Shown in pieces: positions 42,139 to 52,654 of a DNA stretch of 62,234 nucleotides (position 1 is the stretch's first letter; each line of letters opens with the position of its first letter). Where the stretch lies: the NCBI GenBank assembly GCA_020444205.1, contig JAHLLJ010000007.1, positions 1 to 62,234 of the forward strand. Direction: 5' to 3'. Source of the DNA: Deltaproteobacteria bacterium (GTDB lineage Bacteria > Desulfobacterota > Desulfarculia > Desulfarculales > Desulfarculaceae). Made by a program: the position numbers and the translations under genes. The notes under the pieces were generated by a model. It was not told where the DNA came from, did no database searches, and saw only the letters and a program-made list of their open reading frames with translations.

Positions 42139-42225
42139 GCCGAAGTGGCGGAACTGGTAGACGCGCTAGGTTCAGGGTCTAGTACCCTTACGGGTGTGGG
42201 AGTTCGAGTCTCCCCTTCGGCACCA
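42139..42225 (+). tRNA. tRNA-Leu, anticodon CAG (integration target)
   Basis: An 87-base class II tRNA with encoded CCA. Acceptor arms GCCGAAG/CTTCGGC pair fully; stem CTAGG/TCTAG closes loop TTCAGGG with anticodon CAG at 42173-42175; the T-arm is GGGAG-TTCGAGT-CTCCC. Its last 17 bases are repeated at 52638-52654, so the element used it as attB and restored the full gene on integration. The integrase gene overlaps its 3' half on the other strand. Confidence 0.96.
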
Positions 42226-43417
42226 TAAAAAGAATTTGGCCGCAATCCTCAGGGGTTGCGGCTTTTTCTTTATGGCTGGGTGCGGATAGGTGCGTGGCGG
42301 GTGCGAGGGTATCCAACTGGTTTACGGCGTCCCGGTTGCTGCCGGGGATCAGGTGCCCGTAAATATCCACCGTGATTTTGATGCTGCTATGTCCTAGTTG
42401 CTCCTTTACGTAGGTCACGGGCTGTCCCAGGGTCAACAACTGGGTGGCAAACGAGTGCCGAATATCATGAAAACGCCGATCAGGCAGCCCCGCCTTGCGC
42501 AGGGTCCGCTTGTAGTAATGGCGGATGCTGTTCTGGGCTATCGGCATTCCATCGCGGTGAAATATCCAAGGCACCACCTCGCCAAGCCCCGCCTGCATGG
42601 CCTCCCGTTTGCGCCGGGCGTTTAGCTCGCGCAGGGCCTCCACCACCTGGGCGGACATATCTACCCGTCTTTCCCGGCCAGTTTTGGTCCCGCTGGTGCG
42701 TCCGTTCTTGTATGACCTGCGGACCACCAACAGGCAGTTGTGCCAGTCAACATCTCCCCATTGCAAGGCAAGCAACTCACCCAGGCGCATGCCCGTTCTG
42801 AAAGCCACCAGGAATAACGGATAATGGTTTGGGTAATACTCCAGGCATTTGCCCAGAAACACCTGGGTCTCTTCCGGTGTGAAGGCCTGCCCCACCGTGG
42901 CCTTTTTCTGGCGGTGAATATTCATGCGCTTGGTCACGCCCTTGGCGGGGTTGCCGGATATCAACTCGGCCTCTTCCGCATAGCCCATGACCCCGCTGAT
43001 CGCGTCCTTGATGATGCTCACGGAACTCTTGCTAAGCCCCTGCCGGAAGTAGAACATCAACACGTCCCGGACGTGGCGCTTTTTGATCTGATCTAGGCGC
43101 ATCTTGCCCAGGCGGGGCACCACCTTGTTCTTTAGAACCTGGCTGTAGCGTTCATAGGTGCTTTGCCGGCAGAAGTTTTTGACATAATCCGCAAGCCAGA
43201 GTTGCGAATAATCCGCAAAGGTGGGCAGGGGTTCATCCTTGGGAGCATCAAGGTTGTGTTCATTAAGCACCAGCTTGGCCCGGATGATGGTGGCAGCTTC
43301 CTCCGCCTTATCTCTAGGCCCCACCTTGCGGCTGGATCGCTTGCCCTGGTGGTTGACGAAAATCCAATATTCCCCTGAGCCTTTGACCTTTTCTCGTACA
43401 GTTACGCCCATAGGCAT
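42188..43417 (-). CDS. int: Tyrosine recombinase (integrase)
   Basis: A 409-residue phage-type integrase with an N-terminal arm-binding region, a SAM-like core-binding domain (about 65-160) and a catalytic domain with R211 (FRTGMRLGELLALQW), H317-x-x-R320 (HDIRHSFAT), H343 (LGHSS) and nucleophile Y353 (DIYGH). The ATG has GGAGGGATT upstream. Its 3' end runs through attL into the tRNA gene, so the last residues (MVPKGRLELPHP) are encoded by the attachment site and the tRNA. In the excised circle the frame would instead read MVPKGRTGG and stop. It is the last gene of the element in the direction of transcription. Confidence 0.96.
   Translation of the reverse strand: MPMGVTVREKVKGSGEYWIFVNHQGKRSSRKVGPRDKAEEAATIIRAKLVLNEHNLDAPKDEPLPTFADYSQLWLADYVKNFCRQSTYERYSQVLKNKVVPRLGKMRLDQIKKRHVRDVLMFYFRQGLSKSSVSIIKDAISGVMGYAEEAELISGNPAKGVTKRMNIHRQKKATVGQAFTPEETQVFLGKCLEYYPNHYPLFLVAFRTGMRLGELLALQWGDVDWHNCLLVVRRSYKNGRTSGTKTGRERRVDMSAQVVEALRELNARRKREAMQAGLGEVVPWIFHRDGMPIAQNSIRHYYKRTLRKAGLPDRRFHDIRHSFATQLLTLGQPVTYVKEQLGHSSIKITVDIYGHLIPGSNRDAVNQLDTLAPATHLSAPSHKEKAATPEDCGQILFMVPKGRLELPHP
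42209..42225 (+). repeat. attL core (17-bp direct repeat, left copy)
   Basis: TCTCCCCTTCGGCACCA, made of the 3' T-stem strand, the acceptor strand and ACCA of tRNA-Leu(CAG). It is identical to 52638-52654; matching stops at the base before it in both copies. Confidence 0.92.
42239..42267 (+). terminator. Terminator for tRNA-Leu(CAG), inside the integrase gene
   Basis: GCCGCAATCC and GGGTTGCGGC pair with one G-T and are followed by TTTTTCTTT on the plus strand. It begins 13 bp after the tRNA CCA and lies within the integrase coding sequence on the other strand, so the element supplies a new terminator to the tRNA it interrupted. Confidence 0.8.
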
Positions 43418-43508
43418 AATCCCTCCGGTTTAATGAGCCACCCCGTCCTAGCACTCGGTGATTGGGTAGCAAAGCTCTTCTGGCCAGAACGGGATGGCAT
43501 TGTGTTTT

Positions 43509-43718
43509 CTAGTCCAACCACTCAAAACCCAACTCACCATCTTCGTTGTACTGGTGCTCCCCGCAGAGACCTTTTGCCGGGGTTACAGGCCATACGGCCA
43601 ATCCGCTTGCAGGAAGAGGTGGAAAGCGTCTGCATTGCCCAGAATCTGTTTTGGATTCATCGGGCTTCCAAAACACACAGTTTCCACAGTGGTTTGACCA
43701 TATTTTTGCCGCTACCAT
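43509..43718 (-). CDS. Small Cys-rich protein (phage-type CxxCxFW family)
   Basis: A 69-residue protein with CGNCVFWKPDE, GQCRRFPPLP, AVWPVTPAKGLCGEHQ: four Cys arranged as CxxC...C...C, with the CRR-PP and WP-T features of small metal-binding proteins often seen in phages and genomic islands. The ATG has GGGAGGTGGGAA upstream. It lies between the terminase and integrase, where satellites often carry accessory genes. Function unknown. Confidence 0.72.
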   Translation of the reverse strand: MVAAKIWSNHCGNCVFWKPDESKTDSGQCRRFPPLPASGLAVWPVTPAKGLCGEHQYNEDGELGFEWLD

Positions 43719-43862
43719 TTCCCACCTCCCGGCATTTGGTTATGGGCAGACGCGAGAACGTTTTAAAATATCGTTTTTGAGCCGGCACACTGCAAGGACG
43801 CCCCCTAGGCGCTCTAGCACTACTTCCATCCTACCCACGCAAAGACCACTCTGCGGTCAAGT

Positions 43863-44240
43863 CTATTTTGAACGATTAACAATTAGGCCCAGGATTTTGA
43901 GTTGCCGCTCAGCCTCTTCAGCCGATTTTACATCATACTCTCCGCTTTTAACTCCTTTATATAATAGGAAATATAGAACACTTGCATACTTAACCGTGTT
44001 TGCAATATCTTCCTCACTTTTGGACTGGGGGCTATCTAAGTACATGTTTATTTCCATATCGGCATTCCTGTATGCCCGCTCAAGATCGATCATTCTCGCG
44101 TTGTTATCTATTGCAGACTGCAAAGCGTACAGAGCGCGGTAAGCGTCTTTAGCCGATTGAGCCCAGGCAAGATTAGCTGAGACAATGAGTGCCACCAACA
44201 GTACCAATGTAATTCTAAGACCCTTGTTTGCCTTCTCCAT
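43863..44240 (-). CDS. Small secreted protein of unknown function (element cargo candidate)
   Basis: A 125-residue protein with a clear signal peptide (about 1-27, LRITLVLLVALIVSANLAWA) and a helical mature part (KDAYRALYALQSAIDNNARM and later). AAGGGGGACAAACC precedes the ATG. A secreted host-type protein is unusual among packaging genes, so it may be cargo. I do not recognise a family. Confidence 0.7.
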   Translation of the reverse strand: MEKANKGLRITLVLLVALIVSANLAWAQSAKDAYRALYALQSAIDNNARMIDLERAYRNADMEINMYLDSPQSKSEEDIANTVKYASVLYFLLYKGVKSGEYDVKSAEEAERQLKILGLIVNRSK

Positions 44241-44419
44241 GGTTTGTCCCCCTTGTGTAGTTACGGCAGGCGGCTAAGTTTAACATTAAAAATACCCAAC
44301 AAAAAAGATATGCGGCGGATGCCACCATCCCCCAAAATGAACCCCGCAGGCAGGGCCGCCCGGAAGGATGGAGGCTTGGACGCCGCCGCTCGCCCTGGAG
44401 AGTGCCGGGCTGAATAACG

Positions 44420-46042
44420 TCATATGGTCATCACCAACGGTTCGCTAAAGTCATATTCAACAGGCTTTTTCTCTCTTGCATGCAGGCCCATGGCCATGAC
44501 CAGGGACACGAGTCCGTCAACGCGCTCAATTGATTTATCTTTAGCAATCTTGCGGCTCCCAGCTGGATCGACCTGGACAACCGCATTCGCGCAATTCCAG
44601 GTGAGCACCGGGTTTCCGCCATGCCTAATTTTCTGATTCAGGATCGCGGCCTCAAGCGCGTCAGTCGCCGCCCCCATGTCCTTGAAGCCTTGGCCCCAAG
44701 GTACAAGAGGCAAGCTGATCCCCTCATCGGCCAGAATCACTTGTAGGTCCTCAATTCGCCAACGGTCGAACGCAAGGCCCTTTAGGTCGTACAAGGCCGC
44801 GATTTCGCCCAGCCGGTAAGCAATGGCCCTACGGTTGATCGCCCTGCCCTCGGTTGCTTCAATTAGCCCCTTCGCATGCCAGGTGCGATAAGGCACTTTG
44901 TCGTGGTCCTCGCGCTCAGCAAGGCTTTCACCAGGCACCCAGAAAAAAGGCAGGACCGCCCCTTCATCCTCGGGAAAGAACAGCACCAGGGCCGTTAGAT
45001 CGCGGGTAGAGCCAAGATCAAGTCCAGCCCAGCAAGGCCGCCCTACCAGGGCCGCAGGGTCCACCTTGCCCGCGCATGCGTCCCAGTCGGGACCTGCAAT
45101 AAACCTAGTGTCGGCTTCCACCGGTTGGTTCAAGTAGAGATTGCGGAATACGCTTTCTTTGGCCGGAATACGTTGAGCCTGGGCCGCGAATTGCCTCATT
45201 TCTTCAAGAGACCGGAAGTCTCCAAGGGCGGGGTTGCAGGCCTTCCACACTTTTTTGTCCCAGGGGTCCGCGTCCAAGGGGGCGCTGAAGATGACCGGCA
45301 AAAAAGATTCGTCCTGGACCACGCCGTCAAGCACTTGTTGGCCGTAGTTCACCAACTCCGTCATTACGTGGTGGGTGTCTGAGGATTGCGTGCTAATGAC
45401 CACAAACAAGGGCTCCGCCCTGGCCCCTACACCTGTGTCCAAATTGTCGTAAAGGTGCCGGTTGCGAGCCTGTGCCAGTTCGTCATAGACCACAAACGAA
45501 GGTGACAAGCCATGCGCCTTACGATCATCGCTCGACAGCGCCATGTAGACGCTGCCGGTTAGGTCATCCTCCAGGGTTTTGCGGAAGCGTTGTATATTGA
45601 CGCGGGCATTAAATTCCGGGACAGCTGAGATTATGGCTTCAAGCTCATTGAAAATAATACCAGCTTGGTCTCTGTCACTTGCCGCAGAATAAACTTGTCC
45701 CCGTGGCTCAGCTTCCGGCCCAATGAGGTGGCAAAGGGCCAGAGCCGCCGCCAGAGCGGTCTTGCCATTTTTCCGAGGGAAAGTTAACAGTGCCTTACGT
45801 ACCACGCGCACACCGCGCTTAGTGCGGTAAAGGGCACGTATGATTTTCTTCTGCCAAGGCCTAAGGCGGAAAAGCCGCCCGGCGTGCATTCCGCTGGTTA
45901 TTGGCAGAGACTCAACGAAAAGGACAACCCTTTGGGCCCTGGTCAGCCCTGGTTTTTCCCATAAAAAGCAGTATTCGCCAGAGACCTTAGGCCCATCCTG
46001 GACCGTTTTAGTTGGCCCTGCTTTTGGCCCTCGCCGCCCCAT
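44420..46042 (-). CDS. terL: Terminase large subunit
   Basis: A 540-residue packaging motor with Walker A-like PRKNGKT (89-95), Walker B with catalytic acid FVVYDELAQA (D187-E188), and a nuclease domain with WAGLDLGSTRDLTALV and later AFDRW and IERVDG. It cuts and pumps DNA into heads. Its first residues, MGRRGPKAGPTK, look like the start of P27-type small terminases and not like a typical large subunit; no separate small-terminase gene is recognisable. It begins 2 bp after the HNH gene. Confidence 0.94.
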   Translation of the reverse strand: MGRRGPKAGPTKTVQDGPKVSGEYCFLWEKPGLTRAQRVVLFVESLPITSGMHAGRLFRLRPWQKKIIRALYRTKRGVRVVRKALLTFPRKNGKTALAAALALCHLIGPEAEPRGQVYSAASDRDQAGIIFNELEAIISAVPEFNARVNIQRFRKTLEDDLTGSVYMALSSDDRKAHGLSPSFVVYDELAQARNRHLYDNLDTGVGARAEPLFVVISTQSSDTHHVMTELVNYGQQVLDGVVQDESFLPVIFSAPLDADPWDKKVWKACNPALGDFRSLEEMRQFAAQAQRIPAKESVFRNLYLNQPVEADTRFIAGPDWDACAGKVDPAALVGRPCWAGLDLGSTRDLTALVLFFPEDEGAVLPFFWVPGESLAEREDHDKVPYRTWHAKGLIEATEGRAINRRAIAYRLGEIAALYDLKGLAFDRWRIEDLQVILADEGISLPLVPWGQGFKDMGAATDALEAAILNQKIRHGGNPVLTWNCANAVVQVDPAGSRKIAKDKSIERVDGLVSLVMAMGLHAREKKPVEYDFSEPLVMTI

Positions 46043-46044
46043 GG

Positions 46045-46410
46045 TTATATTACTCTGTCCTTGGGGCCATCCACCGGTGGTACAGACTCAGTTGCGAGCG
46101 ATTCTTTGCCCGTATTCCACCAATGGTCCACGTCCAATGGCCGACCCGTCTGAGGGTCCACGCGCCGGTCTCGCGGCGCATTGAATGCTCCGTTGTCCTC
46201 ACGATTCGTCTTGCGAGAATGGCATGAAGCACAAAGACTTTGCAGGTTGTCCCAATCATAAGGATCGCCGCCTTTGGCTATGGCGACAATGTGGTCAACT
46301 TGCGTGGCGACGGTTGGCTTGATGCAGTGTTCACATAGGGGATTTGCCCGCAGCTTAGCTGCTCTTAAGCGCTTCCAACTCGCGCGAGAATATGAGAAGC
46401 GAGAAGACAC
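46045..46410 (-). CDS. HNH endonuclease
   Basis: A 121-residue HNH nuclease with CEHC, the HNH core VDHIVAIAKGGDPYDWDNLQ and CASCHSRKT. In HK97-type systems an HNH protein next to terminase assists cos cleavage and packaging. The GTG start overlaps the stop of the 59-residue protein by one base (TAGTG), and the large terminase follows after 2 bp, so all three are coupled. Confidence 0.92.
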   Translation of the reverse strand: MSSRFSYSRASWKRLRAAKLRANPLCEHCIKPTVATQVDHIVAIAKGGDPYDWDNLQSLCASCHSRKTNREDNGAFNAPRDRRVDPQTGRPLDVDHWWNTGKESLATESVPPVDGPKDRVI

Positions 46411-46589
46411 TACCTAGCACGCCCGCGTAGCCATTGCAGGGCATCTGGCAAGGTGCTCCCCTTGGCCACCTTGAGTTGTCCTTTGGCCATAGCAGTCGCG
46501 ATACGCGCGACAGCGGCCTTGGCTTGAGTCCTGCTCCAGCCGCTCTCCCTCAATGCACGCTCTAGGGCTCGCTTCTCCAAATAATCCAT
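46410..46589 (-). CDS. 59-residue protein upstream of HNH nuclease
   Basis: A short, basic, helical protein (begins MDYLEKRALERALRESGWSR, ends LQWLRGRAR) that I translated directly from the minus strand. It has a good ribosome site (AAGGATAGGG) and its TAG overlaps the GTG of the HNH gene. The first half resembles the helix-rich DNA-binding termini of Fis-like proteins only loosely. Its place just before HNH and the large terminase is where a small terminase would be expected, but it is shorter than known ones. Confidence 0.65.
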   Translation of the reverse strand: MDYLEKRALERALRESGWSRTQAKAAVARIATAMAKGQLKVAKGSTLPDALQWLRGRAR

Positions 46590-46718
46590 TCCCTATCCTT
46601 TCTGGTATTGTGGTTTGTAAGGGTTAAACATCTTGGCTTTCCTTTCATTGCCTTCAAGCGGCTCAACTGTGTTGAGCGTTATATTTCCGGGAGATAGTAA
46701 ATTTATAAGAGTTATAGT

Positions 46719-46812
46719 TTGTGGTAATCTATTTCCCACGGTTGGGTAATCTATTTCCCATGTTGGGTAATCCATTTCCCACTTTCGTATTGGTTGGGTC
46801 ATTTATTTCCCA
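46719..46812 (-). repeat. Four iteron-like direct repeats, candidate replication origin
   Basis: Four copies of about 20 bases (consensus GTTGGGTAATCTATTTCCCA) start at 46719, 46741, 46762 and 46793. The inner two differ at one base; the outer two carry a few changes. They lie directly after the Rep candidate gene and next to an AT-rich stretch (46680-46720) that could unwind. Spacing of 21-22 bp for the first three is about two helical turns, as for iterons. A 69-codon frame across the repeats (46593-46802) encodes a repetitive WExDYPT peptide and ends in the ribosome site of the next gene; I treat it as a by-product, though translation cannot be excluded. Confidence 0.7.
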
Positions 46813-46814
46813 AC

Positions 46815-47525
46815 TTACATTACATGAGCGTTCGCGTAATTTAATGAGTGCTCATTACATGCGCCGAGCATCACTCGGTAGGCTCCCTTCACTTCGGGCA
46901 TGTCCCCAATCAAGCCAACCTCATGCAAGCTCTGGAGGGCACCGCCAACTGATCTGCGATCTACGCCTGCCCATTGTGCTAGCCTGGTAAGGCTTTCATA
47001 GTTGACCCGCCTGCAAATATCCCACCGCCTATTTTGTAGGTGCTCCTCTAAATCATCTTCATGAACCCAGCCGCCCCCGTAATCGGTATCTCCATCACCA
47101 TAGATTTTTGCCTTCCAGCGTAGAACCGGGTACAAAGCTCTCCCCACTGGAGTGCATCTACTCCACATACCAGAGTCTATTACTGAGTAGAAAAACGGCA
47201 GGAATCTATCGGTACCGTGTGCAGTAAAATCAGCGGTCAGTTTACGATGGTAGACATTAAAGGGGCCGCCCCTAGGATTCCGCTTTTTTGATATTGCGAT
47301 AAGATCATAGGCAACCAGTTCGTTTGTAGCCCTACGGACGGCCAAGCGGCTTTTTAGCCCGGCCTTTAAACCAAGAGTTTCCTGGCTTGGCCATGCCAAA
47401 CCTTCGCGATTAACATGCCTAAAGATAGTCATGAGCACTGCTTTGGCTGGCAGGCTTAGAACTGTCCAGGTGCGATCTTCGAATATCCACAATGGGAGCA
47501 AAAAATATTGACCATTTGGTGCCAA
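46815..47525 (-). CDS. Candidate replication initiator with two winged-helix segments
   Basis: A 236-residue protein with an N-terminal winged-helix region (about 22-75; LSLPAKAVLMTIFRHVNREG, WPSQETLGLKAGL) and a second HTH-like region near the C-terminus (about 178-210; LTRLAQWAGVDRRSVGGALQ). Two such domains are the plan of Rep_3-type iteron-binding initiators, and iteron-like repeats follow the gene at once. The TTG start at 47525 has GAGG upstream. A 16-base palindrome (46842-46857, TAATGAG/CTCATTA) lies in its 3' coding end. The Rep role is inference from domain plan and context; no catalytic motif is present. Confidence 0.6.
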   Translation of the reverse strand: MAPNGQYFLLPLWIFEDRTWTVLSLPAKAVLMTIFRHVNREGLAWPSQETLGLKAGLKSRLAVRRATNELVAYDLIAISKKRNPRGGPFNVYHRKLTADFTAHGTDRFLPFFYSVIDSGMWSRCTPVGRALYPVLRWKAKIYGDGDTDYGGGWVHEDDLEEHLQNRRWDICRRVNYESLTRLAQWAGVDRRSVGGALQSLHEVGLIGDMPEVKGAYRVMLGACNEHSLNYANAHVM

Positions 47526-47543
47526 TAGAACAACCTCGCGTTG

Positions 47544-47777
47544 TTAACTCAATCCCGCCATGACCTCATTGACGATCTCATTAACGCCTTCACCGGCATC
47601 AACCGCATAACCCAGCAACCACTCGTCTAGTTGATCCCGATTAACCAGCACGGCCCCGCCTACCCGTGAGTGAGGCAAGCCAGCCTTGAGCCAATCGCGG
47701 ACCGTTCTCTCACTTACATCACATAAGAGAGCTACGGACTTTGCCCGTAACCAGGCTTTGTCACGCGGCGGTAGCAT
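47544..47777 (-). CDS. Excisionase/AlpA-like HTH protein
   Basis: A 77-residue MerR-type single-HTH protein (LRAKSVALLCDVSERTVRDW, then VGGAVLVNRDQLDEWLLG), the form of excisionases and AlpA activators. I use the ATG at 47777, preceded by GTGAGGGCG, which overlaps the portal stop by 17 bp; the frame is open to 47810. It would steer excision or control the element's promoters. Confidence 0.78.
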   Translation of the reverse strand: MLPPRDKAWLRAKSVALLCDVSERTVRDWLKAGLPHSRVGGAVLVNRDQLDEWLLGYAVDAGEGVNEIVNEVMAGLS

Positions 47778-48951
47778 CGCCCTCACCATCAAACGAATCG
47801 CCGCCCTCACGAGGATTCCAAGATTCTATTAAGCGCACCTCGTTAACCGACAAAACTTTATGTTTCAGCGCAATTTCATGTGTCTTCCAACGGGTTTCGG
47901 GATCGCCTCTTAATAGCCCTGACAAGTCGAATTCGACGGCATGATTCTTACGTGCTTCCGAGCTAAAGCAGGAGCGCATAATCTCGGCTTCTAATTTTCT
48001 AATCCAGGGCGTCAAGGTATGCTGGGCAAACCACAAACTGGCTTGCGCAGAGTTCGTGAATGTGTTGTGCGTGTAGTCGCCAATCAACGGAGGCGGGACC
48101 GCATAAATCCTGGCTAATTCCTCGACCGTAAAACGCCTGCTGGCTAACAATTCCATGTCTTCCGGGCTGATCGATAGCGGCTTGACCTTCATGCCCTGGT
48201 CTGCCAAGATTGCCCGTCCGGCATTCTTTGAGCCTTGGTAAAAAGTTTTAAGTTGGCCCTTTAAAGCGTCACGGGCTTCCTGTGATAACTTCCCTTCCAA
48301 CTCCATGGCCAGGCTTGGAGTCGCCATGTTTCGGTGCGTGGCTTCAACGTGTTCACTCAGAGCCCATGCGGCCCGCAGAGTGGCCGCAGCCCGGCTTAGG
48401 CGGGAACGGCCCAACACACCATCATCGGAGCGGTCCTTAAGAAAAAGAACATCCTCGGGTAGTAAACGAATCGTTGCGCCAGCCCTGCCCCAAAGCCCTA
48501 TGGGGTCCGCGAAGTCGAACACCGTGCGGTGCGAGGGAAGCACCTGGACATTGACTTGAGACCATGGAAGGAAACGAAGCTCAGACAATACACCGCGACC
48601 GTCCCGCACGGTCCAGGCCAAACCGTTGCCAGCCAAGAGGGCAGATGCAACAAGGCTTGATACGAAGTCGGGCCAGCTTTGATACTCGGACACGCCGTCT
48701 CTCACCATGCGGGCAAGGGCGTGATCCTTTAAAACGTCCCGGCCGTTTTCGCTTAAACCGAAGACCCAAAACGGCAAGGCGCTTATAGCCCCCGCAATAG
48801 CATTGGTGCATCCCAACACGGCGGCCAAGTTTTCAGCCGCCCCCGCGTTTACGTCCGCTCCCGGCGGGGACCACATGATCTCTTGCCACAACGGCGCGAC
48901 GGTTCGCTGCTCTTCTCTTCCTCGTTTGAAAAGCCGCTGGATTATGCCCAT
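47761..48951 (-). CDS. HK97-family phage portal protein
   Basis: A 396-residue portal of the HK97 gp3 class, with NLAAVLGCTNAIAGAISALP, ALLAGNGLAWTVRD, and the C-terminal block RRFTVEELARIYAVPPPLIG and NSAQASLWFAQHTLTPWIRK. It forms the dodecameric ring through which DNA enters the head. Its ATG overlaps the protease TGA by one base (TGATG on the minus strand). Confidence 0.95.
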   Translation of the reverse strand: MGIIQRLFKRGREEQRTVAPLWQEIMWSPPGADVNAGAAENLAAVLGCTNAIAGAISALPFWVFGLSENGRDVLKDHALARMVRDGVSEYQSWPDFVSSLVASALLAGNGLAWTVRDGRGVLSELRFLPWSQVNVQVLPSHRTVFDFADPIGLWGRAGATIRLLPEDVLFLKDRSDDGVLGRSRLSRAAATLRAAWALSEHVEATHRNMATPSLAMELEGKLSQEARDALKGQLKTFYQGSKNAGRAILADQGMKVKPLSISPEDMELLASRRFTVEELARIYAVPPPLIGDYTHNTFTNSAQASLWFAQHTLTPWIRKLEAEIMRSCFSSEARKNHAVEFDLSGLLRGDPETRWKTHEIALKHKVLSVNEVRLIESWNPREGGDSFDGEGDATAA

Positions 48952-49469
48952 CAGATGATCTCCATGCGGCGTATGGCTAGGGCAAGGCGCACGGGAGCCT
49001 TAGATCGGGCCTGCACACTCGTCTTGTAGGCTGGCTCTCCCCCCGAAATAACGCTGATCTCGGCAAGCTCCAGTGAGGTCAGATCGCGCCGCTTGCCGTT
49101 CCAACGCTCACCGCCGGGATTCACCCGAAAGCCAATGCTCATTCCCGCCAAGTCCCCGCGCTCTGCCAGAGCCAACAGGTCCGCCCCCAAGGTGGTCTGA
49201 GGCAGATCGACCTCAAAGCCCAACCCCGCCGGAGTTTCAGCCAAGCGCAAGGTCTTGGAGCGAGTCCGCCCCAGGAGCTTTGAGGGGTCATGGTCTGCTA
49301 GGCAGGCCACGTCTGGGCCTTTCGCCAGACAGGCGGAAAAGGCCCCTGGCAGCACTCTCTCCTCGAAGTCCAGAATCCGGGCAGGCTGATTGAAGGGCAC
49401 GGCTAAGCCCGTCAGCTTCCGCCCCAATGCCCTGATTTCTTCGGCTACTCGCCGTTCAATGTTTTCCAT
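48951..49469 (-). CDS. HK97-family prohead protease
   Basis: A 172-residue head maturation protease. The core LTGLAVPFNQPARILDFEER, catalytic His in CLADHDPSKLLGRT and catalytic Ser in LAGMSIGF are present. The frame extends upstream without a clear ribosome site; the ATG at 49469 is preceded by GCGGGATGAGC, and alternatives at 49475 and 49493 are possible. It cuts the capsid delta domain during maturation. It lies between the capsid and portal genes. Confidence 0.92.
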   Translation of the reverse strand: MENIERRVAEEIRALGRKLTGLAVPFNQPARILDFEERVLPGAFSACLAKGPDVACLADHDPSKLLGRTRSKTLRLAETPAGLGFEVDLPQTTLGADLLALAERGDLAGMSIGFRVNPGGERWNGKRRDLTSLELAEISVISGGEPAYKTSVQARSKAPVRLALAIRRMEII

Positions 49470-49624
49470 GCTCATCCCGCATTGGCTGCTCATCAGGCCA
49501 GGGCCGCCACACCCTAGCGACCGGGCGGGGCAGGCCCCGCCACGGTTTCGCATGCCCCGTGCTGACCAAGACCGCCACCGGCCAGGCGCGGGAGGGGAGA
49601 GAGCCCCCGCTGGGACATGCGGCT

Positions 49625-50884
49625 TTATCCACGTTCGTCCAGCACCACGAAGGGAGAAACCGTTGCACCACCGTTGTAGGGAGTTTGGGCAGAGGACCAA
49701 ATGGGCTGGCCTCCAACCCGCCAGATGTAGCGGAAGAGCGTTTCCGCATAATCAAATCTGAGGTGGATTGAAGACTGCCCCTGAATCCCGGAACGCTCGA
49801 CGACAAGGAATTGGCTAAGGTCCGCGAGAATGATGTCGCCCTGCTCACCAAGGGCCGGGAGCTGCTCAACCGTGATGACCGGGCGGCCAAACAGCGAAGC
49901 ATAGGGAGTGGCGGAAGCACCGCCAGCGGGCATAAATACAGGCTGCCCGGCAACCCCGACACCCAAGGTCATCTGATAGAGCTGCGTTTCCGTGCCAGGG
50001 CCAACGAGCCACACGGCCTTGCCCCGGCCACGCGGCCAGAGCCGCGCCCACATGGCCAGACAGTTTTCATAAACAATGGTGTCCGCATCCTGGCCAATCT
50101 CCTTGGCCACGCTCACCAGCGAGGGAGAGTTCAGAATGCCGAGCATTTCGCCCGTGCCAGTGCCGTTGATGACCTCATTGACGGCTGCGAATTCAAGCTC
50201 CGCACGAGCGAGGGTGGGAATGGTGGTGCCAAGGGCCGGTGCATCGTCAAGCAGTTCATCAGTGGCGGGCACCATGACCACCAGCTTGTCGGCCTTCACG
50301 GAGAGCCGCTTGAAGGCCGACAAGCTTTTGGTGATCTGGTCGCCCTCGGGCACCCGATAGGCCAAGGTGCCACCGTGGCGGCTACCATCCACGCGGCTGC
50401 TCTCGTCCACATAAGGGAACTGGATATTGCCTGTCTGGCTTGGAACCCTCTGACACAAGTTCAGGACCGGGTTGGCCTCCAAGATTGGCTGGAGCAAGAG
50501 GTTTGACTGCTCAGGTGGCACAACAAAGCCACCATCCGAACCAATGCCCTCAGACATGCCGTAGGCACGGGTCTCCAACCCACGACCGCCCGGGGTCATC
50601 TGGTGGGCGACCGACTGAAGGAACTGCCCGGCGCGCAGCTCGGCAGGCTCCTGGGGCTCCCGCTGTTCACCCACCGGAGAGCCCTGGGTCCGGCGGTCAA
50701 TGTCATCCTGCTTGGCCTGGGCGCTAACAAGCGAATCTAGACGCCCGATCTCCTCGGTTAAGGCCTGGTGCCGGGTTTCCTGCTCTGCCGACAGGTAGCC
50801 GTCCGCACCCGCAGGGGCCGCCAGGATCGCCTTGCCCTCTTCGGCAAGCCGGGTTCTTTTCTCTAAAAGTTCGTGAAGCTTCAT
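49625..50884 (-). CDS. HK97-family major capsid protein
   Basis: A 419-residue capsid protein with an N-terminal coiled-coil delta (scaffold) domain (about 1-70; EKRTRLAEEGKAILAAP, EIGRLDSLVSAQ), a likely cleavage region near 100, and the HK97 fold beginning GSDGGFVVPPE and continuing VLNLCQRVPSQTGNIQFPYV and FEFAAVNE-like E-loop/P-domain segments. It builds the head. It is transcribed before protease and portal, the reverse of the usual phage order. The ATG has GGAGACGAG upstream, inside a hairpin. Confidence 0.95.
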   Translation of the reverse strand: MKLHELLEKRTRLAEEGKAILAAPAGADGYLSAEQETRHQALTEEIGRLDSLVSAQAKQDDIDRRTQGSPVGEQREPQEPAELRAGQFLQSVAHQMTPGGRGLETRAYGMSEGIGSDGGFVVPPEQSNLLLQPILEANPVLNLCQRVPSQTGNIQFPYVDESSRVDGSRHGGTLAYRVPEGDQITKSLSAFKRLSVKADKLVVMVPATDELLDDAPALGTTIPTLARAELEFAAVNEVINGTGTGEMLGILNSPSLVSVAKEIGQDADTIVYENCLAMWARLWPRGRGKAVWLVGPGTETQLYQMTLGVGVAGQPVFMPAGGASATPYASLFGRPVITVEQLPALGEQGDIILADLSQFLVVERSGIQGQSSIHLRFDYAETLFRYIWRVGGQPIWSSAQTPYNGGATVSPFVVLDERG

Positions 50885-50910
50885 GGACTCGTCTCCGTAT
50901 GCGAGACGAG
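50885..50910 (-). promoter_or_regulatory. Hairpin enclosing the capsid gene ribosome site
   Basis: On the minus strand CTCGTCTC and GAGACGAG form a perfect 8-bp stem with a 7-base loop, three bases before the capsid ATG. The 3' arm contains most of the Shine-Dalgarno GGAG, so folding would hide it. Confidence 0.45.
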
Positions 50911-50975
50911 CCCGAGTTTGGGGTGGTCTGGCTGGTTTTCAGGCGGGGCCCCTTAGGGGCGCGGCCAATCGATTG

Positions 50976-51122
50976 CTATCTTTTGGGCAAAAACGCCCTG
51001 ATTGTTGCCAAAACTGCTCTATAAGCGTCAAGATTATGCCGTTGAAGAGCCCGTAACAGGGCCCCAGGATCAGTTTTTTCGCTTTTGGTGGGCCGTTGGC
51101 CCTGAGTGGGCACGCTACTCAT
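50976..51122 (-). CDS. 48-residue ORF coupled to the MerR-like gene
   Basis: A short basic protein (MSSVPTQGQRPTKSEKTDPG to the end FLPKR). Its ATG overlaps the last codons of the MerR-like gene (ATGAGTAG), a common coupling arrangement, with GGTGAAGAAG upstream. Too small to classify; it lies between regulator and capsid. Confidence 0.45.
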   Translation of the reverse strand: MSSVPTQGQRPTKSEKTDPGALLRALQRHNLDAYRAVLATIRAFLPKR

Positions 51123-51654
51123 CTTCTTCACCATCAAACAGATCAAGGTTTCGGAAAACTTCTTCAACCACCCGGTTAGCGACCAGCGTGGATAACACAA
51201 CCACACCTGCGGCAACTAGCTCGTCAGCTCTGTTGTCAACGTGCGCGGGCAGTTTTTGGATGTAGTAATCCCAGCCACCCTGGGCCTGTTCGCTTGGCCA
51301 GAACAGAACGAGAGAAAGTCGCGTAGAGGCAAAGAACATTTCGACGGGAACGTTTCTGTAAACTCTCGCCACTCCACCCGCCCCAAAACTGTGCGCGGAC
51401 AGGAAGTCTTCAGCAATTTCAAACGCCCGAGCCACGGGAACGCAGGAGGAAATGAGGTGCCTAGACAATGCGGCACGTACAACGTCCAGCACCGAAAAAC
51501 GACGCCAGCTTGCCCCCTCCCTCTTTTCCTCGGCATCAAACCCGATACCATAGCGCTTTCCACGATCCAACCAACCGCGTAAGGTCTTGGGGGGAACACC
51601 GGCAGCTAAGGCGGCCTCCGTAAATGTGAACCGTCCCTCGGTCATCTGGTTCAT
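51115..51654 (-). CDS. MerR-type HTH protein (element regulator candidate)
   Basis: A 179-residue protein with a MerR-like N-terminal HTH (FTFTEAALAAGVPPKTLRGW, then RRFSVLDVVRAALSRHL) and an unassigned C-terminal part. A ribosome site (GGAGGGC) precedes the ATG. Just upstream lies a 21-bp inverted repeat that suits a dimeric regulator. It could switch the packaging genes that follow on the same strand. Confidence 0.72.
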   Translation of the reverse strand: MNQMTEGRFTFTEAALAAGVPPKTLRGWLDRGKRYGIGFDAEEKREGASWRRFSVLDVVRAALSRHLISSCVPVARAFEIAEDFLSAHSFGAGGVARVYRNVPVEMFFASTRLSLVLFWPSEQAQGGWDYYIQKLPAHVDNRADELVAAGVVVLSTLVANRVVEEVFRNLDLFDGEEDE

Positions 51655-51696
51655 TTTTAAGCCCTCCGAACAATCAGACTCATAAAAACTTCCACT

Positions 51697-51717
51697 ATGG
51701 TGTCACTTTTACACCAT
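51697..51717. promoter_or_regulatory. Candidate operator upstream of the MerR-like gene
   Basis: ATGGTGT-7-ACACCAT is a perfect 7-bp inverted repeat with a 7-base spacer, 43 bp before the gene start. Size and symmetry fit a MerR-dimer site. Confidence 0.45.
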
Positions 51718-51784
51718 CCAGTATGGGGGTGGCAACCCGCTTTGGGCACTTTTCGGCACTTTTTTGACGCTCAGGGCGTTTTTT

Positions 51785-51822
51785 TTCAAAAAAATCGCCC
51801 CGGCCAAGCGGCCAGGGCGATT
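51785..51822 (-). terminator. Terminator of the tandem-RHH gene
   Basis: On the minus strand a strong GC-rich hairpin (ATCGCCCTGGCCG / CGGCCGGGGCGAT-like arms around CTTGG) is followed by a run of seven T residues. It separates the RHH gene from the MerR-to-integrase block. Confidence 0.8.
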
Positions 51823-51879
51823 AGTCGGTATTCAAAATGAAAAGCGGCAAGACGGTGGACATAGAGACCAGAAAGGGGA

Positions 51880-52443
51880 TCAGGTACTAAAACCCCCTAA
51901 ATATTTAAAAATCTCACGCAAAAATAACAATTCCATTTTGGCCCTCAATTTTTCAACATGGTATCTTCTGATATATGTGATACACGCCAGAAGATTCTCA
52001 ACGATATCTCCCGGGTCCATTTGGTACTGGTCCTTATACTCCTTTGCTTTCAGTTCCAACCTTTTCCAGGTTTTGTGGCTCACCTCAACCTTAACCTCTT
52101 TGTCCCCGAAGCCATTCTCTATGTTATATATACCGGCTAACGAATATTGCTCATCAATACACTTAATGGCATCATCTTCTTGTGTCTGTTCATCTTCTTG
52201 TGTTTGTTCATCTTTTTGTGTTTGTTCCTCTTTTTGTGTTTGTTCCTCTTCTTGGTGGCCTGGTGTTTTTCCTCCGGACGCACGTGCTCTGAGAGGAATT
52301 TCGCAAAAATCAAGCAAGGCTGTAATCAAGTCCCCATGAGATAAGACAAGCCCAGGACGCCCCTTCTTAATTTCTTCTGCTAATTCAGTTAATTTTGTCT
52401 CTGACCTTTGGCTAATCCGAATGGTCCGTTTTTCCTCGCTCAT
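51880..52443 (-). CDS. Protein with two ribbon-helix-helix-like ends and an EQTQ-repeat linker
   Basis: A 187-residue protein. The N-terminal part (about 5-48; RTIRISQRSETKLTELAEEI, DLITALLDFCE) and the C-terminal part (about 115-165; KEVKVEVSHKTWKRLELKAK, DIVENLLACITYI) both read as strand-helix-helix like CopG/RHH DNA-binding units. Between them is an acidic Gln-rich linker with four EQTQ repeats encoded by an 18-bp tandem repeat. It is the first gene of the element, has a good ribosome site (AGGGGGTGAGAA) and its own terminator, and may be the master repressor. No known family is recognised. Confidence 0.65.
   Translation of the reverse strand: MSEEKRTIRISQRSETKLTELAEEIKKGRPGLVLSHGDLITALLDFCEIPLRARASGGKTPGHQEEEQTQKEEQTQKDEQTQEDEQTQEDDAIKCIDEQYSLAGIYNIENGFGDKEVKVEVSHKTWKRLELKAKEYKDQYQMDPGDIVENLLACITYIRRYHVEKLRAKMELLFLREIFKYLGGFST
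52175..52246 (-). repeat. 18-bp tandem repeat, four units
   Basis: Four full 18-bp units at 52175, 52193, 52211 and 52229 and a partial fifth, encoding EQTQ followed by two acidic or Lys residues in the linker of the RHH-like protein. Length is a multiple of three, so copy number can change without breaking the frame. Confidence 0.85.
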
Positions 52444-52480
52444 TTCTCACCCCCTAGTGGTGGGCAACATTGCCATATTG

Positions 52481-52512
52481 ACTATATAGTTCATGGGTAA
52501 TTACGATTGCAA
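52481..52512 (-). promoter_or_regulatory. Candidate promoter of the tandem-RHH gene
   Basis: On the minus strand TTGCAA (52512-52507) and TATATA (52488-52483) are 18 bp apart, leaving about a 33-bp leader. The -10 lies in the perfect palindrome ACTATATAGT (52481-52490), a possible autoregulatory site. Confidence 0.4.
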
Positions 52513-52637
52513 CCCTATCGCGGGCCTTGCAAATCGCGGAAATCGGGTGCGGGTAGGTGCATTTTTGGTGCAAAAAACACCCACCCCCTAAGGGGTGAGT
52601 GTTAATGATATCAACAGGTTACCGCCTAACCTCCGGT

Positions 52638-52654
52638 TCTCCCCTTCGGCACCA
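52638..52654 (+). repeat. attR core (17-bp direct repeat, right copy)
   Basis: Identical to the last 17 bases of tRNA-Leu(CAG) but with no tRNA body upstream, as expected for the far end of a tRNA-targeting element. Confidence 0.92.

Follow-up and report, generated by a model that had tools for sequence, protein, structure and literature searches.

The window, i.e. the whole stretch of 62,234 nucleotides analysed here (contig JAHLLJ010000007.1 of a Deltaproteobacteria bacterium of the Desulfarculaceae), contains at a tRNA-Leu gene an island of about 10.4 kb that has 17 bp of the tRNA-Leu 3′ end repeated at its two boundaries. The following features were located at its ends and on both sides of the replication region:

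42209 to 42225, plus strand: att repeat TCTCCCCTTCGGCACCA, the 3′ end of tRNA-Leu (42139 to 42225)
42188 to 43417, minus strand: tyrosine integrase (PF00589, E 3e-29)
44420 to 46589, minus strand: packaging genes downstream of the repeat array, encoding a 59-aa protein (p59), an HNH endonuclease and the large terminase (TerL)
47544 to 47810, minus strand: AlpA/excisionase-like HTH_17 protein directly upstream of rep (HTH_17, E 6e-9; TIGR01764 at cut-off)
47761 to 50884, minus strand: portal, prohead protease and major capsid protein (PF04860, PF04586, PF05065)
52638 to 52654, plus strand: second att repeat at the opposite end of the element

Read along the minus strand, the island encodes a 187-aa protein, a MerR-like regulator, the capsid protein, the prohead protease and the portal protein, followed by the AlpA-like HTH protein, Rep, the array, p59, the HNH endonuclease and the large terminase, and finally by two small unknown proteins and the tyrosine integrase. 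The 187-aa ORF at the element end (51880 to 52443) contains a run of internal EEQTQ/DEQTQ repeats and has no family match of weight. The terminase is related to those of HK97-type cos phages, with about 39–41% identity to phage homologues. No clear small terminase subunit (TerS) was found; p59 is the only candidate, and the AlpA-like ORF weakly matches a TerS PHROG. The conserved p59 protein (59 to 66 aa; 46410 to 46589 in the window), which always lies between the array and the HNH gene in the three islands compared below, has a weak HTH_8/Fis-like match and might serve as a terminase subunit of very small size or as a regulator. No helicase, loader or primase was recognised in the element.

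Capsid-forming PICIs have a mean size of 14 kb and are reported mainly from Enterobacteriaceae, Lactobacilli, Enterococci and others (PMC10803314). The island shares with them a site-specific integrase, an AlpA-like regulator and its own HK97-type capsid module with terminase, and no tail genes were recognised among the proteins scanned; it differs from them in its size of 10.4 kb and in its initiator. By its looks, the stretch from 42209 to 52654 is a capsid-forming phage satellite from a host group absent from the published list.

Between the AlpA-like gene and the p59 gene the following features were found, where L015 and L021 denote two related islands:

46815 to 47525, minus strand: rep, a 236-aa tandem winged-helix protein with TTG start, the proposed initiator
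46795 to 46812, minus strand: iteron copy 1, nearest to rep, TGGGAAATAAATGACCCA, kept in L015 and L021
46764 to 46781, minus strand: iteron copy 2, TGGGAAATGGATTACCCA, kept in L015 and L021
46743 to 46760, minus strand: iteron copy 3, TGGGAAATAGATTACCCA, kept in L015 and L021
46721 to 46738, minus strand: iteron copy 4 with degenerate right end, TGGGAAATAGATTACCAC, same degeneration in L015
46678 to 46737, no strand assigned: AT-rich stretch of 70% A+T, the proposed unwinding element, overlapping iteron copy 4
46661 to 46677, no strand assigned: inverted repeat GCTCAAC-N3-GTTGAGC beyond the AT-rich stretch

Since rep is encoded on the minus strand, the array (46718 to 46812) is located 3′ of the gene; it starts 2 bp beyond the rep stop codon, and its far end reaches the least stable DNA of the element. 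A repeat search yielded four copies of 21 nt (46718–46738, 46740–46760, 46761–46781 and 46792–46812), which are 81–100% identical to the reference copy and have spacings of 22, 21 and 31, so that the four direct repeats of the original prediction were recovered within 1 bp. Counted outward from rep the spacings are 31, 21 and 22 bp, i.e. about three and about two turns of DNA, and all iteron copies would therefore lie on the same face of the helix. The iteron core on the Rep strand is TGGGAAATARATKACCCA, with the fourth copy degenerate at its right end; it is a broken palindrome that matches its own reverse complement at 14 of 18 positions. Past the rep stop codon the repeat score was 46, whereas dinucleotide shuffles (two sets of 20) reached at most 18, and three phased copies were found at none of 496 control gene ends. 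As expected of an iteron-type origin, at least three phased direct repeats of about 20 bp thus adjoin the proposed initiator gene. When the whole genome was searched for the core, three exact matches and one with two mismatches were obtained in the array; the best match elsewhere also had two mismatches, and the genome totals at up to three mismatches equalled those of a reversed-pattern control. The best matches of the genome thus all fall in the array, which is unique to this site. Single matches to the iteron in 23 other viral contigs lie in stretches without a Rep-profile match and were taken as chance. A 69-aa ORF across the repeats (46593 to 46802) was rejected as a gene, as its frame stops after 24 codons in L015 and it has no Pfam match.

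The AT-rich stretch predicted beside the repeats was borne out as well: no 60-mer of the element is less stable than 46678 to 46737, which is tied with one other and belongs to the five least stable of the window, so that easily melted AT-rich DNA adjoins the array in the manner of iteron origins. Among 19 relatives with Rep homologues (see below), the DNA after the array is within the top 10% of AT-richness of its own locus in 17 and more AT-rich than the DNA before the array in 16. No exact DnaA box (TTWTNCACA) is present within the element; such boxes are common at iteron-type origins, though not universal. Iteron plasmids often have a second array with a purely controlling function, and the array could accordingly be an incompatibility or titration locus that is bound by Rep and merely restrains it, with the true origin elsewhere in the element. 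A pattern search, however, found no second array in the element, and an AT-rich tract adjoins the array in nearly all relatives, which makes a mere titration locus highly improbable.

In L021 the inverted repeat beyond the AT-rich stretch has paired changes in its two arms and is still perfect (GCCCAAC-N3-GTTGGGC); in L015 it is broken, and its arm length in the window is no better than that of some shuffles. Inverted repeats occur at the corresponding place in many relatives. A terminator or conserved hairpin past the AT-rich tract was rejected, because the inverted repeats of the relatives are not clearly beyond shuffles and the one in L015 is broken.

The N-terminal half of Rep matches Pfam HTH_36 (E 4e-11), and an hhalign comparison of the two halves of the protein, taken from a split alignment of 12 sequences, showed them to be homologous (probability 98.3, E 1.2e-14), in agreement with the two winged-helix segments that had been predicted for it. 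All 12 Rep homologues are tandem winged-helix (HTH_36) proteins. In comparison with PHROG, Rep matched several replication-initiation families, of which the O-like one was best (E 2.7e-8); the match to PHROG 391 and the other matches are confined to the first domain, and none covers most of the protein. Rep_3 initiators such as RepE and π use two winged helices, in RepE arranged as a pseudo-dimer, on iterons of 20–22 bp, and the original prediction had assigned the origin to this type. The general layout is indeed alike, and support was obtained for an iteron origin served by a cognate initiator with two winged helices, but the assignment to Rep_3 had to be dropped: none of the 12 homologues matched PF01051 at E ≤ 0.1, and a genome search gave no Rep_3 match in the window's genome. 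Likewise, the 12 homologues gave no match to RepA_N (PF06970). The AlphaFold model of Rep, built from three sequences, reached a pLDDT of 42 and was too poor for fold comparison. No Rep homologue was found in 72,556 plasmids or 50,697 phages, and scans of the genome contig collection gave no relative. Since neither a free plasmid nor a sequenced phage with Rep was found, autonomous replication is undocumented by any known replicon.

The islands L015 and L021 allowed us to analyse which protein goes with the repeats. L015, on an IMG/VR contig, has the gene order of the window and is likewise located at tRNA-Leu, while in the third island, L021, the capsid genes have moved behind the terminase. 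Both carry four copies of the repeat with the phasing seen in the window. The repeats of the window and L015 are nearly identical; in L021 the right half is changed in all four copies and GGGAAATA is kept. Rep identity follows this pattern, with about 81–82% between window and L015, 55% between window and L021 and 58% between L015 and L021. For the same pairs in the same order, the identities of p59 (66, 66 and 91%), AlpA (none, 82% and none) and HNH endonuclease (58, 77 and 61%) are unlike the repeat pattern. TerL (94, 86 and 89%) does track it; no TerL relatives were found beside the distant arrays. The three islands have recombined, and the repeats track Rep and not AlpA, p59 or HNH. Capsid, integrase and AlpA differ strongly among the three islands, whereas Rep, array, p59, HNH and TerL stay together; the arrangement is therefore not the random decay of a single prophage.

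More distant Reps were obtained by profile searches of genomes of the same phylum; they are full-length homologues of 17–32% identity. At the rep end of nearly all first-found homologues there are three to seven repeats, each array with its own sequence and often extending over the stop codon. Before scoring, it was predicted that all new homologues would pass a 16-mer test. Of 20 found, 19 were scored as full-length, and 7 of these passed, compared to 3 of 131 control gene ends (p 2e-5); the all-pass prediction thus failed, and the enrichment of arrays at rep ends is nonetheless real. A phased-chain test, which was devised post hoc, was positive for 10 of the 11 homologues found first and for 8 of the 20 new ones (p 1e-12 for the latter versus controls), in contrast to none of the 496 control gene ends; it detected no phased array in the remaining 12 new homologues. 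One homologue, in L113, is broken by a TAG stop, has no phased array and is apparently a decaying copy. Absence of the repeats from otherwise similar elements had been named as the outcome that would speak against the original prediction; both close relatives and many of the distant ones have them.

The distant Reps are located on other integrative elements, mostly without recognised packaging genes nearby, and several of these (L018, L080, L082 and L137) consist of an integrase, Rep and few other genes. The relative L016 has a phage capsid gene (L016:6709–7926) and a small terminase gene (L016:6086–6394), and with its capsid gene it indicates that capsid-bearing members are not confined to the close relatives of the window. 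In L137, Rep is 30% identical overall to that of the window and has similar recognition helices, and the iteron, TGGGAAATAGATGCCCA, differs little from the window's; besides Rep, the genes recognised in its surroundings are limited to those for an integrase and an ERCC4 nuclease, and no terminase adjoins. A gene for an ERCC4-type nuclease follows the array in two small integrase-Rep elements (L080:8451–8981 and L137:1839–2438), where the nuclease perhaps processes replication intermediates.

These relatives bear on two further functions of the repeats that the window itself would suggest. Because the array is directly upstream of the packaging genes and HTH_36 is found in transcription regulators too, Rep could be a regulator and the repeats operators controlling the downstream p59-HNH-terminase operon. 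However, the downstream genes vary among relatives (packaging genes, the ERCC4 nuclease or no annotated gene near), whereas the array is constantly at the rep 3′ end with AT-rich DNA beside nearly every copy of it, and the PHROG matches of Rep are to replication proteins. A purely regulatory function is accordingly improbable; it is possible that the array serves as both origin and operator. The position of the repeats upstream of p59, HNH and a terminase of HK97-type cos kinship would also suit a cos or packaging recognition site for p59 or another terminase component. Such a site is exceedingly unlikely, because p59 is nearly the same in L015 and L021 and yet their repeats differ, and because the array occurs also in relatives without a related terminase, including L137 with its near-identical repeat.

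Taken together, the repeats are very probably iterons that are bound by the adjacent Rep and that form, with the AT-rich tract, the replication origin of the island. The two homologous winged helices and the broken-palindrome iteron are coherent with this reading. From the arrangement we infer a course of events in which the island would excise and circularise, Rep would then bind to the phased iterons, and the Rep-iteron complex would open the adjoining AT-rich DNA, where a helicase from the host or a helper phage would be loaded for replication. As no helicase, loader, primase or exact DnaA box is recognisable in the element, such functions would be supplied from elsewhere.

The layout is already known from tested origins in lambda and PICIs, and the initiator is outside the standard plasmid families tested. 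In lambda, as in the island, four iterons are followed at once by an AT-rich tract, and the N-terminal domain of Rep is O-like according to PHROG. The lambda origin is situated inside the O gene (PMC7466680), whereas the origin of the island follows rep and no P-like loader was recognised; moreover, Rep has a second winged helix in place of the C-terminal part of O, and the similarity is restricted to one domain. In PICIs the origin is located directly 3′ of rep and comprises iterons and an AT-rich region (PMC6092414). The PICI-like character that had been proposed for the island stands with regard to this layout, to the integrative satellite nature and to AlpA. It does not extend to the initiator: EcCICFT073 and other E. 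coli PICIs have Pri-Rep and an AT-rich region with a set of iterons on either side (PMC6092414), whereas the island has a single array and no primase or helicase match. RepA of PLE, a RepA_N protein, is a satellite initiator without helicase or primase that is associated with semi-palindromic direct repeats (PMC7145576); an own helicase or primase is absent in both systems, but Rep of the island has no RepA_N match and two tandem winged helices. HTH_36 Reps with predicted two-copy iteron-like repeats at the oriVs have been described for Paracoccus plasmids (PMC3832669), and, compared by description only, initiator domain and iteron-like repeats are alike. No published description of the present protein-array combination was found in the literature searched.

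With regard to the wider family, we consider it possible rather than probable that these proteins form an undescribed, phylum-wide family of tandem HTH_36 initiators. Such a family would provide integrative elements, whether or not they have capsid genes, with a portable replicon fixed 3′ of the gene, and each winged helix would read one half of the semi-palindromic iteron, the second domain the left half, which is conserved, and the first domain the right half, which is variable. The helix sequence IHRN and the half-site ATGCAC are common to L019 and L020, and between the window and L021 the second helix is shared together with GGGAAATA. The more similar two Reps are overall, the more similar are their iterons, and in the non-redundant set a Mantel test gave no significant sign of a recognition-helix code in addition to this correlation. 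The second domain as reader of the left half is therefore a lead only, as the test adds nothing significant once near-duplicates are removed. If true, half-site reading would let origin specificity evolve half by half.

For satellite-like islands, the origin proposed here would provide a concrete replicon beyond the groups in which capsid-forming satellites are mainly reported, with one cassette of initiator and iterons serving elements that have capsid genes as well as elements that lack them. As Reps and iterons occur in a natural series, the specificity of the initiator is open to direct testing, and the rep-array cassette is a ready handle in the search for related islands.
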